Below, one piece after another: positions 3,725 to 16,300 of a stretch of 64,000 nt of DNA. The notes under the pieces are model-generated. The model did not search any database, had not been told where the DNA came from, and saw only the letters and a list, made by a program, of their open reading frames with translations. A program made the translations under genes and the position numbers. Position 1 is the first letter of the stretch. Each line of letters starts with the position of its first letter. Origin of the DNA: a virus; the IMG/VR virus record IMGVR_UViG_3300022748_000015, positions 1 to 64,000 of that record, one strand, 5' to 3'.

Positions 3725-4054
3725 ATGGCAGTAGCAACCAAGAGCAACAAGACCACCAAGACCGCAAAGACCACCAAGGTCGAACTAACCGAGGCTGGCG
3801 TAAAGGCTCTCAACGCTTTCAACAAGGCAAAGCAGGCAGAGGCTAAGGCAAAGGCTCTCAAGGCTAAGGCAGAGGCTATGCTTCGTGCCGAGTTGGGCGA
3901 GGCAACCGAGGCAACTGTTCAGGGCGTAGTTGCCGTCAAGGTAATCGCAAGCAAGACTTCTTCGTTTGACCGCAAGGCTCTGCTGGAGAACTACCCAGAG
4001 GCTTATGGCGCAACCTACCGTGAAACCGAGTATGACTACCTAAAGACCCTCTAA
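3725..4054 (+). CDS. Lys/Ala-rich protein with phage C-terminal module
   Basis: 109 aa, ATG 3725 behind AAGGACAAACCGAA. Residues 1-60 are Lys/Ala/Thr-rich and strongly helical (NKTTKTAKTTK..., AKQAEAKAKALKAKAEAM), like a histone-tail or coiled-coil. Residues 75-109 (SSFDRKALLENYPEAYGATY...) resemble a short module seen in other phage proteins. DNA or RNA binding is likely from charge. The gene has its own promoter, palindrome and terminator. Confidence 0.78.
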   Translation: MAVATKSNKTTKTAKTTKVELTEAGVKALNAFNKAKQAEAKAKALKAKAEAMLRAELGEATEATVQGVVAVKVIASKTSSFDRKALLENYPEAYGATYRETEYDYLKTL

Positions 4055-4070
4055 GGGTCGCTAGGTTCAA

Positions 4071-4286: not shown

Positions 4287-4532
4287 ATGTCAGCAGTAGT
4301 TACCACCCCAGCAGTTGCCGTAGAGGTTCTAGGTCAGAGCGTGACTATCGCAGACCGCCACTTCACTTTCGCAGAGTTGTCTGCCGTTCTATCCCCTGCC
4401 GAGATTGTGCTTATCTGCCGTGCCTTGTCGCAGGCTTCCTACGACAACCGTGACTTCGAGGAGGGCTGGGCAATGGGAGTGCTTTCCAATAAGTTTGACC
4501 CAGCCTATGCCGAGGCAGTAGCCAGCCTCTAG
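4287..4532 (+). CDS. Small acidic-ended protein, last left-arm gene
   Basis: 81 aa. ATG 4287 is chosen because CAAGGAG lies at the right distance and because the longer ORF start at 4194 lies upstream of the promoter. It has an N-terminal beta region (VAVEVLGQSVTIADRHFTF), then helices with LSPAEIVLICRALSQASYD and GWAMGVLSNKFD. No family recognised. The last small cassette before the gene-free region. Confidence 0.75.
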   Translation: MSAVVTTPAVAVEVLGQSVTIADRHFTFAELSAVLSPAEIVLICRALSQASYDNRDFEEGWAMGVLSNKFDPAYAEAVASL

Positions 4533-4550
4533 CGCAGGCATACCGACAAG

Positions 4551-4580
4551 CCCTCTGCCGATAGGCAGGGGGTTTTTGTC
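4551..4580 (+). terminator. Terminator closing the left arm
   Basis: CCCTCTGCC-GATA-GGCAGGGGG stem followed by TTTTTGTCTT. Confidence 0.92.
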
Positions 4581-4589
4581 TTGCCGTAG

Positions 4590-5003
4590 GTGTTTGCCGT
4601 AGCCCAACCATAGCCAAGGCGTTTGCCGTGGCACACCCTAGGCAGGCTTCTAGAGGGGCATAGAGGGCTTTAGGTATTCATTCCTAGCGACTTATCAAGA
4701 ATGTAGGCAAAGGCTTCCTAGGGGCTTCTAGGGGCTTTCTAGGCTATGTTCGCTTATCTAAGCACTCATAGACCTCGCCTAACCCAGCCCAGCCAGCCCA
4801 GACCAGAGTCTAGGCAAGTAGACCCAGCCCAGCCTCTAGCAACTTCTAACCAAGCCCAGCCCAGCCTTAGACCAACCTAGGCAGACCTAGAGCCTTGACT
4901 TAGTTAGTCAAGCCCACCTAGATAAACAAGAGCCTAGACCTAGATAGACAAGACCCTCTTTACTTAGTCAATGACTATCAACCAGCCAGCCAACCAGCCA
5001 GCC
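4590..5003. other. Gene-free region with short repeats and palindromes
   Basis: No credible ORF on either strand. By eye there are about thirteen CTAG tetramers between 4635 and 4945. GGCTTCCTAGG, GGCTTCTAGG and GGCTTTCTAGG stand in tandem at 4712-4743, with degenerate copies upstream. CCCAGCCCAGCC-type repeats recur near 4784, 4823 and 4853, and CCAGCCAGCC near 4981-5003. There are two palindromes sharing AGTCAA: CTTGACT-TAGTT-AGTCAAG (4894-4912) and TAGTCA-A-TGACTA (4965-4977). The first overlaps a possible promoter, TTGACT-18-TAGATA (4895-4924). Replication origin, packaging site or regulatory hub are all possible. Confidence 0.6.
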
Positions 5004-5004
5004 A

Positions 5005-5022
5005 AAGAAAAAATAAAGACAG
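5005..5022 (+). repeat. 18-bp left-arm repeat, copy 8 (diverged)
   Basis: AAGAAAAAATAAAGACAG, with one core change (TAAAGAC for TAAATAC). It sits directly beside the CIRCE-like element. Confidence 0.75.
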
Positions 5023-5027
5023 AGGCG

Positions 5028-5054
5028 CTAGCACTCGACAGACAGGAGTGCTAA
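5028..5054 (+). promoter_or_regulatory. CIRCE element (HrcA operator)
   Basis: CTAGCACTC, nine bases, GAGTGCTAA. The consensus CIRCE is TTAGCACTC-N9-GAGTGCTAA, so 17 of 18 defined bases match and the spacer is exactly nine. CIRCE is the binding site of the heat-shock repressor HrcA, normally found upstream of groEL or hrcA-dnaK operons. No chaperone gene is in this window, and the nearest downstream gene (5479) has its own promoter 250 bp away. On the - strand the site is preceded by GGTTGGAAGTTGTG, which resembles the conserved block before left-arm promoters. Confidence 0.85.
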
Positions 5055-5307
5055 CACAACTTCCAACCAGAGAGGCAAGCCCAGACCCCCCACCTCGATT
5101 TAGGAAACAATCCGAGGGGTCACCACATATAGCAGCTGCCCTCTCGCACCCCAAAAGCAGTCAGCGTCCACTATACAACACTATGCCGTTTCTGCAAATA
5201 CCTCCGAATCTCCAGGGAAATAGACCCCCCTTTTCTAAAATCCGGCTCCACAAATTTTCAAAAAAATCGTCCAAACTCTAAAAAATAGACGCCCCTATTT
5301 TTACTAC

Positions 5308-5384
5308 TTGACAACGTTCCCACCCCCATGTGATACTCTTTTAAGACGGAGAGCATCCCAGACGCTAAAGGTTTAGGGTGCTCT
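5308..5384 (+). promoter_or_regulatory. Strong lysis promoter and structured leader
   Basis: TTGACA (5308-5313), 18-bp spacer, GATACT (5332-5337) with an extended TGT just upstream. The RNA would begin near 5344 and fold AGAGCA-CCC (5350-5359, one bulged T) against GGGTGCTCT (5376-5384). A competing inner pairing CTAA/TTAG (5365-5368 and 5373-5376) is possible. The leader to ATG 5479 is about 135 nt, the longest in the window apart from the left arm, so the hairpin may regulate expression. Confidence 0.7.
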
Positions 5385-5478
5385 TTCGTGTACCGTGACA
5401 ATACAACTGAAAAAGAAAACGAAAACAAGTCCCCAGGACAATAAACGACCTACTAACCAATAGAAAGGCGGTCGCTAA

Positions 5479-8960: not shown

Positions 8961-10376
8961 ATGGGCAAATCAATTATGGAGATTTTGGCTGCTTTGCCGC
9001 CAGATGAGCGTGCTCTTGCACTCCAAGACATGGATCCAGACCAACTTCTATGGGACTGGTCTGTCTGGGGTCGCCCGGAGCAGCAAGCTCCTGAAGGTGA
9101 TTGGAATATTTGGCTTGTTCTAGCTGGTCGTGGTTTTGGGAAGACTCGCCTAGCATCTGAATGGGTTCGTGAGCAGGCAAAATACACCACCACTGGCCAA
9201 CGTCGTTTCGCTTTAGTTGCTCGTACCGCAGCTGACGTACGTGACGTTATCGTTGAAGGTGAGTCTGGCATCATGAATGTTAGCCCTCCTAGCGAAAAAC
9301 CTCTATACGAGCCTTCAAAACGTCGTCTAACGTGGCCAAATGGCAATACTGCCTCGCTTTTTACTGCTGATGAACCTGACTCACTTCGTGGTCCTCAGTT
9401 CACACACGCATGGGGTGATGAGATTGCAGCCTGGAGACAGACTCCAGATGCCGCAGGTATGACCGCGTTTGATAACTTACGTGTTGGTACTCGTCTTGGC
9501 GCTCAGCCAAAGATCCTTGTAACCACTACGCCTAAGCGAACTCCACTTCTTTATAAGCTAATTGAAGAAGAAAAGACCGGTCGAGTAGCAATTACCCGTG
9601 GTTCTACTATGGATAATGCTGGAAACCTTGCTTCTGCCTATCTTGACACCATGCTTGGCGTTTACGAAGGTACTTCCCTGGCTCGCCAGGAGCTTTATGG
9701 TGAAATGTTGGAGGCTCAAGAAGGCGCTATGTGGACTGAAGAGTCCATTGAAGCCGGACGAGAGAGCTACTACCCACTTTCAACTCCTCTACGAGTTATT
9801 GGTGTTGACCCTTCGGTTGCCGAGAACCCTCGAGATGAGTGCGGTATCGTTGTCTGTGCTTCGACCTCGGAGTCTGACCTATATAAGCGCAACGCCTGGG
9901 TTCTAGAAGATGCTTCAATCCACGGTTCTCCAACCGTTTGGGCACAAAAAGTTGTAGAAATGGCTCGCAAATGGGGCTGTCCAGTTGTCGCTGAGGTTAA
10001 TCAGGGTGGTGCATTGGTTAAAAATGCTATCCATACCATCGATCCAAGCATTAAAGTGCTTGAAGTTCACTCAAAACAGGGTAAGCAACTGCGTGCAGAG
10101 CCTATTACCCTTGCTTACGAGCAGCAACGTGTTCACCACGTAGGGTATTTGTCTGATCTAGAGACTCAGATGATCTCATGGGTACCTGGAGAAGGTAAAT
10201 CACCGGACCGAGTAGATGCTTTGGTGCATGCTTTGACCGCACTTCTCATCAAACCTCCTGCTGGATTTACTGGCGGTAAGATCCGAGCTCGTTCTATGTC
10301 CGACAGAAAGATCGGATTACCTCAAACTGGACGCGGATCTACTGGCCGCGGGGCAGGAATCTTCCGAGTACGATGA
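8961..10376 (+). CDS. Terminase large subunit
   Basis: 471 aa. N-terminal packaging ATPase: Walker A AGRGFGKT (55-62), Walker B with catalytic Glu in HAWGDE (149-154) and coupling motif TTTP (188-191). C-terminal RNase H-like nuclease: Asp283 in GVDPS, Glu345 in AEVNQGG and an Asp pair in DRVDALVHAL (416-419). The protein cuts and pumps the genome through the portal. No small terminase subunit is obvious next to it; the two-HTH protein at 7144 or the small HTH protein at 54643 could serve. Confidence 0.95.
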   Translation: MGKSIMEILAALPPDERALALQDMDPDQLLWDWSVWGRPEQQAPEGDWNIWLVLAGRGFGKTRLASEWVREQAKYTTTGQRRFALVARTAADVRDVIVEGESGIMNVSPPSEKPLYEPSKRRLTWPNGNTASLFTADEPDSLRGPQFTHAWGDEIAAWRQTPDAAGMTAFDNLRVGTRLGAQPKILVTTTPKRTPLLYKLIEEEKTGRVAITRGSTMDNAGNLASAYLDTMLGVYEGTSLARQELYGEMLEAQEGAMWTEESIEAGRESYYPLSTPLRVIGVDPSVAENPRDECGIVVCASTSESDLYKRNAWVLEDASIHGSPTVWAQKVVEMARKWGCPVVAEVNQGGALVKNAIHTIDPSIKVLEVHSKQGKQLRAEPITLAYEQQRVHHVGYLSDLETQMISWVPGEGKSPDRVDALVHALTALLIKPPAGFTGGKIRARSMSDRKIGLPQTGRGSTGRGAGIFRVR

Positions 10377-11028: not shown

Positions 11029-12753
11029 TTGGGAATTTTCAAGAAGAACCAGAACCAGATGCCAAGAGTGGCACCTGGTCCTCAGATTAGAGCAGCTGCG
11101 CCTCGCAACACGACTCCAATCGCACCTGGCGTTTCCATGGACTCGTTCGGAATCATCTACGCAGAGCCTGCTGCATTCAACTCTCCACGTCCACTGACTG
11201 CTGCTGCAGCTCAAATGAAGATTGGCGATGCAAACGAGGCTACCCAGTTCAAGCAACGCCGTCAATCAGCTGCAGCTAGCTGGCAAGCAGAGGCCTGGGA
11301 GTACTACGACGCCATTGGTGAAATTAAGTACGCCTTCAATCTAGTTGCAAACGTTGTTTCTCGCATCCGCCTATACGCTGCTGTTGTTGATGACCCAGCC
11401 GAGGCTCCGGTTTCAGTAAAGAAGTCTTCGACCGTTTCTCAGGAACTAGCAACTGCTGCAGAGCGTGCACTTACTCGTCTTGATTCAGCTTATGGAGGCC
11501 AGGCAGGTCTTCTTAAAGATGCAGCTCTAAACCTTCAGGTTACTGGAGAATGCTACCTTGTTCAGGTTCCAGAACGTATCGGCTCACGCTTGCCCGAGTC
11601 ATGGGATATCCGTTCGACAGATGAGCTCCAGGTCGATGCTCGTGGTAACTATGTAATCAGCCCTATGCGTGATGTTTCTGGTGGATCTTCAAGCCAGACC
11701 AGCAAGAATGCAATCAAGCTTCCTTCAGATGCTTTCATTGGTCGCATTTGGAAGTCTCACCCTCGCTACTCTTTGGAGTCTGACAGCTCGCTACGCGGCC
11801 TCTTAGACCTCTGTGCAGAACTACTGCTTCTTAACCGTACTTTCCGTGCTACGGCCCGTTCTCGCCTCAATGCGGGTGCACTCTACCTACCTGATGGTCT
11901 ATCGGTTGCAGCGTCTCCAGACCCTGACTACCCATACGACGAGAATGGCGAGTATAACGAGCTTTACAACGCTGAAGAAGCAGCTGATGATTTCGAGGAT
12001 CAACTCCTCGACGCAATGACTACTCCGATTAAAGACGAGGATTCTGCCAGCGCTGTAGTTCCACTGATTATCCGTGGTCCATCAGAGCTTGGTGACAAAA
12101 TCAAGCAGTTCAAGTTTGAGCGTTCATTCGACGACTCGCTGGTTGCTCGTGCTGACCGAGTTCTTGACCGCATCATGCAGGGTCTGGATGTTCCAAAGGA
12201 CATCGTTTCTGGTCTTGCCAACGTTAAGTACTCTAATGCTCTGCAGATCGACGAGTCACTCTACAAGGCCCACATCGAGCCAATGATGCTTCTAATTGCA
12301 GATGCTTTGACAGTTGTCTATCTGCGTCCATATCTAATCTCAATTGGCTATGAAGAGCAGGAAGTAAACCGCCTCAACGTTTGGTATGACCCAAGTCTGA
12401 TTGCCACTCGTAACGACCGTGCAGCAGATGCTGACGCTGGTTTCGATAAGATGGCAATTTCATATGATACCTGGCGTCGTACTCATGGATTCTCTGACCA
12501 GGATGCACCAACTCCAACTGAAGTTGCTCTACGCCTGATTATCGAGAAGGGTGCAGTTGATCCTCAGACTACTGCATCAATTCTTGGTGGTATTGCCCCT
12601 GAACTTATGCAGAAGGCATTCAACGCCAACCAAGAAGCCTCTAAGGCTCCAATGCCTCAGGATGTTCTAGATGCTCTATCTGGAAATCCAGGAGCACCAG
12701 CAGCGACAGAAGCTACACCAACATCACCACCACTAGCAGAACCAGGGGCATAA
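11029..12753 (+). CDS. Portal protein
   Basis: 574 aa. The start is TTG 11029, with AGGGAG six bases upstream; no better start is in frame. The protein has the actinophage portal pattern: an early AEAWEYYDAIGEIKYAFNLV helix and VSRIRLYAA strand, a wing, then IWKSHPRYSLESDSSLRG, a stem and crown region with LDRIMQGLDVPKDIVSGLAN (about 376-395), and a Pro/Ala-rich tail. It forms the dodecameric ring through which DNA enters. It follows the terminase by two small genes, the normal order. Confidence 0.88.
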   Translation: MGIFKKNQNQMPRVAPGPQIRAAAPRNTTPIAPGVSMDSFGIIYAEPAAFNSPRPLTAAAAQMKIGDANEATQFKQRRQSAAASWQAEAWEYYDAIGEIKYAFNLVANVVSRIRLYAAVVDDPAEAPVSVKKSSTVSQELATAAERALTRLDSAYGGQAGLLKDAALNLQVTGECYLVQVPERIGSRLPESWDIRSTDELQVDARGNYVISPMRDVSGGSSSQTSKNAIKLPSDAFIGRIWKSHPRYSLESDSSLRGLLDLCAELLLLNRTFRATARSRLNAGALYLPDGLSVAASPDPDYPYDENGEYNELYNAEEAADDFEDQLLDAMTTPIKDEDSASAVVPLIIRGPSELGDKIKQFKFERSFDDSLVARADRVLDRIMQGLDVPKDIVSGLANVKYSNALQIDESLYKAHIEPMMLLIADALTVVYLRPYLISIGYEEQEVNRLNVWYDPSLIATRNDRAADADAGFDKMAISYDTWRRTHGFSDQDAPTPTEVALRLIIEKGAVDPQTTASILGGIAPELMQKAFNANQEASKAPMPQDVLDALSGNPGAPAATEATPTSPPLAEPGA

Positions 12754-13353: not shown

Positions 13354-16300
13354 ATGTCCAAGCTTTCATTTGCACAGAAGACCGCTTTAGTTGCAGCAGC
13401 TGGTTTTAATGACGGTGCTAACAAGGGATTCTGGCGCAAGCAGTGGCGTGATCGCCTCGGCAAGTGGGCTGAGATGGGCCGTGGCATTGATTTCAAAATG
13501 CAGACCAAGAGTGGTGTTGTAGATGGCCACGGTGTTTTTATTGGTGGAACCGATAAGCCAGGCTTTGGACGAGTAATGGTTGAAGGCCAAGAGAATAATG
13601 GCCTCCCATCTGGTGTCTATCACATTGCCTCGGCTAATGGTCAGGAATACGCAGCTCGCCTACCAGAGGGTGCACTTAAGGACCAGGGCATCGAGCTCAA
13701 AGACACTATGGGTAACAATGTTGGTGACCGTCAGGCCAGCGACATTCAAAGCCTAGAAGGTACTCAGATTGATCCGATTACCGAGGAAGACCGAAAGCTT
13801 TCTAAGGAAGCTCCAAACCCTGAACAGGCAAAACTCATCCAACAAGAGCGTGATAACTCTCCTGTTGCTAAACTTCCTGCTGGATCAGAGAGCCGCCTAT
13901 CTTCTGAAGAGCTACAAAACCTTATGCAGGGAGACTCTACTGCTACTGATGCCAAAGATTCTCCAGAAGCTTCTGGATGGTCCAAGGGAGAAGCTGGACG
14001 TAATCGTCCTGGCCAGACATACTACTACACCAAGGTTGGAAATGTTCGCCTAGGCGCTTACACCTATCAAGGTGAAAATACTGTTCAGGTTAATGGCGAG
14101 AACTTCACTAACTATTATGACAATTGGTCAGACTTCCAAAAGGATCTCCCTAACTTCCTAGAGCAAGACAAGAAGATGTCTATCGCCGAGGCAAAATCTC
14201 TTCTTAAGCCTTACGACACCGATGGCTCTTTGTCAAAGATGATTGATAACGGTGCTAATGGTACTGATATCGCAACTGCTCTTCTTTCCAATGAAGACTG
14301 GAAAAAAGATTCGCAGATTGCATTTGACTCCAACTGGGCCGATAATCGCACCCGCGAAGAAAATGCAGCTCATAGCCGCACTGGAAACGCTCGCTCAGCT
14401 CAGTTTGTCCTTGACCGTTTTGCTCCAGAGCAGAATAAGGGATCTAAGGAAGATGCTATTGCTGCAGACCTATTCAAGGCAGCCATAACTGGAAATGATC
14501 TTCCTACTATTGACTCTCTAGAGTCAAAGCTCCAGGATAAGGGTTCAGAGCCAGATGATAAGTTCCAGATGGATCCATGGCTATATCAAATCACTCCTGG
14601 ATCAGAGATTGACTACAATGACTACGTTGTTAATCCAGAGAACTCAGATCAAATTCTTAAGGTTAAGGACTTCAACCCTAGCGACATGGATGGAGCTACC
14701 GAAGTTCTCAATGTTGTTGGTGTTGATGAAAATGGAAATGAAGTAACCTTTAAGCTTCCAGAAAATAAAGAATTCCGTAAGGTAATGGAATGGAAGGCAA
14801 AGCCAAATTCCACTCAGGTGGATTCGACTCCAAAGGATATTGCACCAGAGAATGCCGTTTATGTAGCGCTTAAGGATCTCCAAGCTGGAGATAAGTTCTA
14901 CAACGAGAGCGGCGACCTCATGGGAACCGTTGACTCAACTGAGCCTGCTAAGGATCCAGAGAAGATCAAGGTTAACTACACTAATGCATCTGGCGAGAAG
15001 AAGTTAGTCGTCAGCTATGGTGAAAATACCTATGCAACTGACCGTAAGCCAGAAGATAATGCTCAGGCTCCGGAAGCTGCACCTGCAGAACAGCCAACCC
15101 CTACCGAGACCCCCGCAGTAGAGGCCCCGGCTGAACCTACTCCAGCGGTAGAGGCTCCTGCAGAGCCAACCCCTATCCAGGAAGTTGCCCCTACTCCGGA
15201 AGCCCCGGTAGAACCTAAGCCAACACCAACTAACGTAAAACCAAAGCCTCGTGCCAATGATACCGGTAAATTAATCCCTCGCCCTAAGTTCACTGAAGGC
15301 CAGTTGAATCAGCTTCGTAAGACAAAGCTTGAAGGTTTAGTTGATGATACTGGTGCTGCTGTTCTTGAATACGATTCAAATGGCAAGCCTTACCAGCCTA
15401 AGGATCCTAACGCCATGCTTAACTTCTTGGCTAAGGTATATCCAAACGCTAAGTTCAATGATCAAGGCCAACTAGTGCTCATGCGCCAGGTCTCGAACGA
15501 GAATGGCAAGAAGATCCAATGGGAAATCCGTGCAGCAAACTCGGGTGACAAGAAGATCATCTACATGTTTAACTTCAAGGATCTAAATACTGGTCAGGAA
15601 GAGACTCTCATCCACAAGGATGCCCGTGACTCTGTTCAGGCTCTACTAGGTAAAACCAATAGCCCTGAAATGCTTGCTGATATTCTGACTGGAATTGAAA
15701 CCCGAAAGTTTGGTCGTTTTGATACAGCCAATGCTAGAGATATTCTAGAGCGTGCTCATTACTTCACTCTTCAAGGTCGTACCAAGAATATTCGCGATCT
15801 AGTGAATCACTATGCAAATGGTTTTGCTGCCAGATTCAATCCTAAAAATGGTACTCAGCTAGAGGCCGAGGTTAAATCGCTATTCGACTCATTCTGGGCC
15901 GGAGATAGTGAAACTACTAGACAACGTATGCTGGCTGTGTTCGGCAGAATCCCTATGGACAAGCAGTCACACGCAATTGCCCGCAAGGCTCTACGCGATA
16001 TGTTCCGTGATCGTTATCCTCACGAGTCTGGTCGTAAATTCGGTGCTCTTGTATCTACTGCTTCTGCAACAGTTCGCGGGCAGCAGTTTGACACCCCCGA
16101 GACCAGAGCAATTCCTTATTCATCTGCAAATAAAGTTGATGCAGTAGAAGAGGGAATGACCGTTGAGTATACCAACAATATTGGAGAGAAGTCTGTTCTT
16201 AAGGTTATTGCTCGTCAGAAGGTAAATACTGCCAACCCTACTCAGAGTGGCGATATTTTTGATTACGGTGACTACGTAACAGTTCAAGATATGAATGGTG

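Follow-up and report, generated by a model that had tools for sequence, protein, structure and literature searches.

The window, i.e. the whole stretch of 64,000 nucleotides analysed here, opens an IMG/VR virus record of 124,826 bp (G000). This record is that of a tailed phage, which encodes a large terminase, a portal protein, a major tail protein, a tape measure protein and a primase, and also a ribonucleotide reductase, PhoH and ten tRNAs. The features of the locus are the following:

4287–4532, plus strand: small gene (81 aa) 5' of the strip, without family match
4533–5478, no strand: gene-free strip rich in short repeats, without convincing ORF, separating the small genes on its 5' side from the structural/packaging module
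5028–5054, no strand: CIRCE-type inverted repeat CTAGCACTC-N9-GAGTGCTAA, candidate host HrcA operator, extending to 5027–5055
5094–5150, plus strand: conserved noncoding motif, putatively packaging (cos)-like, with the core AGGAAACAA at 5102–5110, then ...GCAGCTGCC
5308–5337, plus strand: sigma70-like promoter TTGACA-N18-GATACT (10/12, TG before the -10), facing the NlpC/P60 gene
5479–6108, plus strand: NlpC/P60 gene (209 aa), first gene 3' of the strip
8961–10376, plus strand: large terminase gene, with the CIRCE-type repeat 3.9 kb upstream
11029–12753, plus strand: portal protein gene, used as the anchor for relatives

The site at 5028–5054 reads CTAGCACTC GACAGACAG GAGTGCTAA. It carries 17 of the 18 CIRCE bases, a single mismatch separating it from TTAGCACTC-N9-GAGTGCTAA, and its spacer is exactly 9 bp long; sequence and coordinates are as the first-pass annotation had given them. 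In the degenerate form YTRGCACTC-N9-GAGTGCYAR the match is exact, and it is the only one in the entire record. One further pair lengthens the palindrome (GCTAGCACTC / GAGTGCTAAC, 5027–5055, one mismatch). Across the window this is the single match at up to 3 mismatches, for 0.06 expected. When the local 946 bp were shuffled 3000 times with their dinucleotides preserved, no shuffle came within 2 mismatches of CIRCE, and at 1 mismatch or less the strip gave 0/1000 with dinucleotide and 0/1000 with trinucleotide shuffles. By its sequence, the window element is confirmed as a real CIRCE-type operator.

The same annotation had placed the operator in a gene-free region of a phage, with no chaperone gene nearby, and both points hold: 4533–5478 contains no convincing gene in a virus that has terminase, portal and tail genes, no Cpn60 was found in G000, and probes for GroES, DnaK and DnaJ gave no convincing match there. 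CIRCE would be looked for in front of a chaperone operon, in its promoter or 5' UTR; this site has no such surroundings, and the closest good promoter begins 253 bp downstream. In the same strip a second palindrome, GCCTTGACT-N5-AGTCAAGCC (4892–4914), matches no known operator. A replication origin in the strip was considered and rejected, DnaA boxes being absent there.

Relatives were collected by their large terminase: a related one is present in 522 contigs, of which the best 80 were kept, every record being metagenomic. Over the family loci and the whole records, CIRCE at 2 mismatches or less was found in the window, L046 (perfect), L163, L135/L139 and G010 (perfect), and a decayed copy with 3 mismatches in L140. 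These five sites compare with 0.03 expected when the arms are shuffled, and arms set at spacings 6–8 or 10–12 gave zero sites in the family. At least four further sequence contexts thus hold CIRCE in relatives. The 9-bp spacing is exact in all family sites and the arms are constrained, while spacers (GACAGACAG, TCGTGCGGT, TCTATTGGT, TGCCGGGGC and ACGCAACAC) and flanks vary by lineage, as expected for a protein-binding site. A chance match, or a host chaperonin promoter contaminating the assembly, is very improbable: the large number of windows scanned speaks for it, and nothing else does, against the 0/3000 shuffles, the recurrence of CIRCE in relatives and a record without chaperonin gene. 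Chance was rejected by the shuffles, the expected counts and the shuffled-arm and spacing controls; contamination, as well as the promoter of a phage chaperonin, was rejected on the lack of Cpn60 and of convincing GroES, DnaK or DnaJ in G000.

CIRCE had also been expected at the same place in related phages. This did not hold, the majority of relatives having no CIRCE and the carriers having it in different intergenic spots: ahead of small genes that point leftward in L046 and L163, ahead of one that points rightward in the L135 group, and ~22 kb upstream of the terminase in G010. Absence from close relatives, which the annotation would have counted against its proposal, is therefore true of most of them, but some carry the element and others have, in the equivalent strip, boxes for IdeR or LexA (see below).

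The sole relative found in GenBank is the Actinomycetia phage DSL-LC01. It matches a portion of the portal gene at 74% and has no CIRCE, and its predicted host belongs to the Actinomycetia (PMC10611076). A search for the host through homologues of the large terminase in genomes returned distant alphaproteobacterial matches only. Tyrosine integrase (Phage_integrase, PF00589), the integrase family searched for, is absent from G000 and 17 relatives, and G000 is an uncultured, probably lytic actinophage. A role of the operator in prophage induction is therefore unlikely, and prophage heat induction was rejected on this ground.

No HrcA was found in G000 nor in 44 phage records, which rejects a phage-encoded HrcA as the partner of the site. 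With HrcA missing from the phages and Cpn60 from G000, the partner would be the HrcA of the host. The chaperonin (groE) genes of actinobacteria are indeed controlled by HrcA and CIRCE (PMC5904260). The phage site has the same TTAGCACTC-N9-GAGTGCTAA arms and spacing as the bacterial regulon, but it differs in lying far from any chaperone gene and from a good promoter, in a genome without hrcA. On these sequence grounds we consider it likely that host HrcA binds the window CIRCE.

Strips equivalent to 4533–5478 are present in relatives, and we surveyed them for recurrent perfect palindromes and with a panel of sites of known regulators, the consensus sequences being those that we assumed for each regulator. 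Exact or near-exact IdeR/DtxR iron boxes appear in the equivalent gene-free strip of relatives, two to three per genome. At 1 mismatch or less there are three in L142 (494, 707, 961), three in L144 (5925, 6147, 6296) and two in L188 (13298, 13382), for none expected and 0/1000 local shuffles. In L291, L294, L303 and L309 two textbook IdeR boxes stand 85 bp apart (4047–4065 and 4132–4150 in L291), and an HTH-like gene lies 155 bp downstream of the nearer box. The exact TTAGGTWAGSCTWACCTAA box occurs in 20 IMG/VR stretches, about half of them from the family of the window phage. Other relatives (L181, L184, L187, L189, L200) have one or two exact SOS (LexA) boxes each, TCGAAC-N4-GTTCGA, e.g. at 13512 and 13544 in L181, 13051 in L187, 3701 in L189, and 13508 and 13540 in L200. 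Sites of HspR, CRP/GlxR, Rex, NrdR, DosR, Zur-like and AmtR-like regulators showed no enrichment among family members, and these seven consensuses serve as an internal negative control for the panel.

These positions suggest that the family places operators of host regulators in the gene-free strip 5' of the conserved motif, HrcA in the window and IdeR/DtxR or LexA in relatives, and that these phages would exploit stress regulators of the host or sequester them. The palindrome could instead be bound by another protein, phage-encoded or of the host, whose site resembles CIRCE, or be a functionless remnant. The abundance of short repeats in the strip and the palindrome at 4892–4914, which has no known owner, are consistent with such a reading. 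We nevertheless regard it as quite unlikely, given that the exact half-site and the 9-bp spacing recur amid different spacers and flanks, that operators of well-known host regulators share the strips, and that other phages have CIRCE in front of chaperone genes.

The conserved noncoding motif that adjoins the strip, AGGAAAC...(about 35 nt)...TGCC, is found in many relatives; it is a candidate cos site, called packaging-like because of its location and conservation only. Its core begins 47 bp after the window CIRCE. The distance from operator to motif is ~15–25 bp for the iron boxes of L188 and L291 and 1–2 bp in L181 and L187, the SOS boxes of the L181 group, of actinobacterial type, touching the motif. 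Since operators abut the motif in some lineages, a host-assisted role in packaging is conceivable: proteins of the host that bind DNA might dock there and assist or hinder the terminase at cos/pac, by analogy with IHF, which acts at lambda cosB. The concentration of CIRCE upstream of the terminase in unrelated phages, described below, would fit. Against this, CIRCE is 0.5–1.9 kb from the motif in L046, L163 (~0.5 kb in both) and the L135 group and ~20 kb from it in G010, so that a rule by which CIRCE always adjoins the motif fails; moreover the regulators differ by lineage and the motif is a candidate cos only. We judge this packaging role improbable, even more so than the binding of another protein.

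CIRCE is also present in other viruses. A relaxed CIRCE pattern matches at least 120 IMG/VR stretches, compared with 17 for an arm-reversed control, i.e. at least 7-fold more. Among the matches listed, Cpn60 was found in 4 of the 50 CIRCE records examined, and GroES occurs in about a dozen CIRCE loci. Some phage Hsp20 genes have a CIRCE 25–35 bp upstream, and another CIRCE adjoins the promoter of an HtpG gene, these gene names being assigned by reading the translations. The genes that have a CIRCE just upstream are the Hsp20-like ones of L001, L012, L065, L075 and L078 and the HtpG-like one of L053. Phages thus appear to employ HrcA sites of the host, their Hsp20 and Hsp90 chaperones being apparently under the control of host HrcA, judging from the position of the operators. 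The window resembles these cases in having CIRCE on phage DNA and differs from them by the lack of a chaperone gene at the site.

Among the 21 records in which a large terminase could be recognised, that of the window included, 16 have CIRCE at most 5 kb upstream of this gene (7.5 expected, P ~3e-5, noncoding-matched null); without the window the figure is 15 of 20 (7.4 expected, P ~1e-4). The 5-kb limit was picked after seeing the data, as were several of the tests, including those of clustering, and the noncoding nulls rest on simple longest-ORF gene calls. Two or three CIRCE in tandem occur in phage contigs without nearby chaperonin genes: at 5424, 5473 and 5522 in L068 (a 49-bp period), 4885 and 5217 in L083, 7037 and 7074 in L099, and 3068, 3200 and 3257 in L028.

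Such locations raise the possibility of control in cis, in which HrcA, or LexA or IdeR in relatives, would gate a phage promoter, much as some temperate phages are gated by LexA boxes, and make transcription, early or late, depend on the stress state of the host. Ordinarily HrcA binds across the promoter or the transcription start. In L046, L163, L135/L139/L140 and G010, CIRCE is ~30–90 bp upstream of the sigma70-like promoter of a small gene, which makes cis control a strong rival. The CIRCE that closely precede Hsp20 and HtpG genes and the 15 of 20 other phages with CIRCE close upstream of the terminase point the same way, a good promoter towards the structural genes follows the window strip, and the operators that hug the conserved motif in several lineages also suggest a role in cis. 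In the window, however, the promoter 253 bp downstream is too far for ordinary HrcA repression, the genes adjoining CIRCE are not conserved across carriers, and prophage induction is unlikely for the reason given above. On balance we hold control in cis to be unlikely for the window site, though much less so than a role in packaging.

Operators of unlike regulators are also stacked in unrelated CIRCE phages. Within 400 bp of CIRCE there are 16 Fur-like and 9 NtrC-like sites and none in the remaining ~1 Mb of the same loci, many of which are closely related, the independent lineages being about three (A, C and L032). No IdeR box was found near the CIRCE of other phage loci. In the nine contigs of family A the Fur-like box AATTGAGAATGATTCTCATT is invariant (9/9) with variable flanks. 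In L032 (483–705) NtrC-like sites, three copies of AGTGAGTACTCACT, CIRCE and Fur-like sites are stacked in ~220 bp, and in L051 (40–140), ahead of a sigma70-like promoter, a CIRCE has an SOS-type box on either side, all within 100 bp. Mixed arrays were also seen near CIRCE sites in L062, L070 and L008, as in L032 in unrelated terminase-proximal strips, their components being NtrC-like TGCACC-N5-GGTGCA, Fur-like boxes, CIRCE and the repeated AGTGAGTACTCACT.

The reading that we prefer, tentatively and at somewhat less than an even chance, is that the window element is a genuine operator of host HrcA, one of the family's set of host operators, and most likely titrates HrcA in trans. As the phage genome replicates, the operator copies would multiply and titrate host HrcA; GroES and GroEL would then rise and serve capsid folding. 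The iron or SOS boxes of relatives would likewise de-repress iron uptake or SOS genes. We infer the presence of HrcA in the host, its titration and the benefit to the phage. Titration is favoured because unlike operators are stacked, because tandem copies occur, because the regulator differs by lineage at the same place, and because the window has no promoter near enough for ordinary repression; stacks of unlike operators fit it better than they fit the control of one promoter. As for the features of a decoy, the window strip is gene-free and has one CIRCE, relatives have tandem IdeR or LexA boxes and other phages have mixed arrays. Counted against titration are the single CIRCE per genome in the family of the window phage and the majority of relatives without any.

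The decoy idea, which the first-pass annotation had put forward beside heat-shock control of a phage promoter and a packaging switch, may plausibly be broadened, on the arrangement of these sites, to arrays of host operators. In its widest form, unrelated phage families would carry operator sponges, i.e. terminase-proximal gene-free strips with sites for global regulators of host stress and nutrient responses (HrcA, LexA, IdeR/DtxR, Fur, NtrC and a AGTGAGTACTCACT-factor), whose titration upon replication would reprogram chaperonins, SOS, iron and nitrogen functions without any phage protein, the window CIRCE being the HrcA member. We consider this generalisation possible but doubtful. NtrC is an activator, and sponging it de-represses nothing, which fits simple de-repression poorly.

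Titration by noncoding DNA is familiar from datA, which titrates DnaA, and from multicopy operators, which titrate repressors in the laboratory. The strips would similarly soak up a DNA-binding protein, with the differences that they are phage-borne, concern host stress repressors and vary in regulator by lineage, and that their titration is a proposal. LexA (SOS) boxes occur in temperate phages and plasmids, e.g. coliphage 186, CTX and GIL01. As in those phages, the operator of a host stress repressor is present in phage DNA, and relatives of the window phage carry exact SOS boxes; unlike in those phages, HrcA and IdeR sites are found instead of or beside LexA, in a gene-free strip, with tandem or mixed operators and no tyrosine integrase found. 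Sites of host regulators in phages are thus already known in general. In the part of the literature that was searched, we found no report of CIRCE/HrcA sites, IdeR operators, mixed operator strips or host-operator decoys in phages.

The need of capsids for GroEL has long been known. If host HrcA binds the phage sites, this need would gain a cis-encoded control and phages would manipulate or read the chaperonin switch of the host directly. Mixed operator strips, if true, would amount to a protein-free takeover of the host, or to a sensing of host state at the packaging/late boundary. Known host operators in terminase-proximal gene-free strips could also hint at the hosts of uncultured phages.

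Two further observations were made. A 19-bp Fur-like palindrome, AATGAGAATNATTCTCATT, occurs in at least 120 viral stretches of IMG/VR (L311 onwards), far over naive expectation. Elsewhere in the record of the window phage (L214 16466–19576, i.e. G000 80466–83576), near collagen-like tail-fibre genes, a large protein is encoded that contains an Mtd_N (major tropism determinant) domain; it is a possible diversity-generating target.
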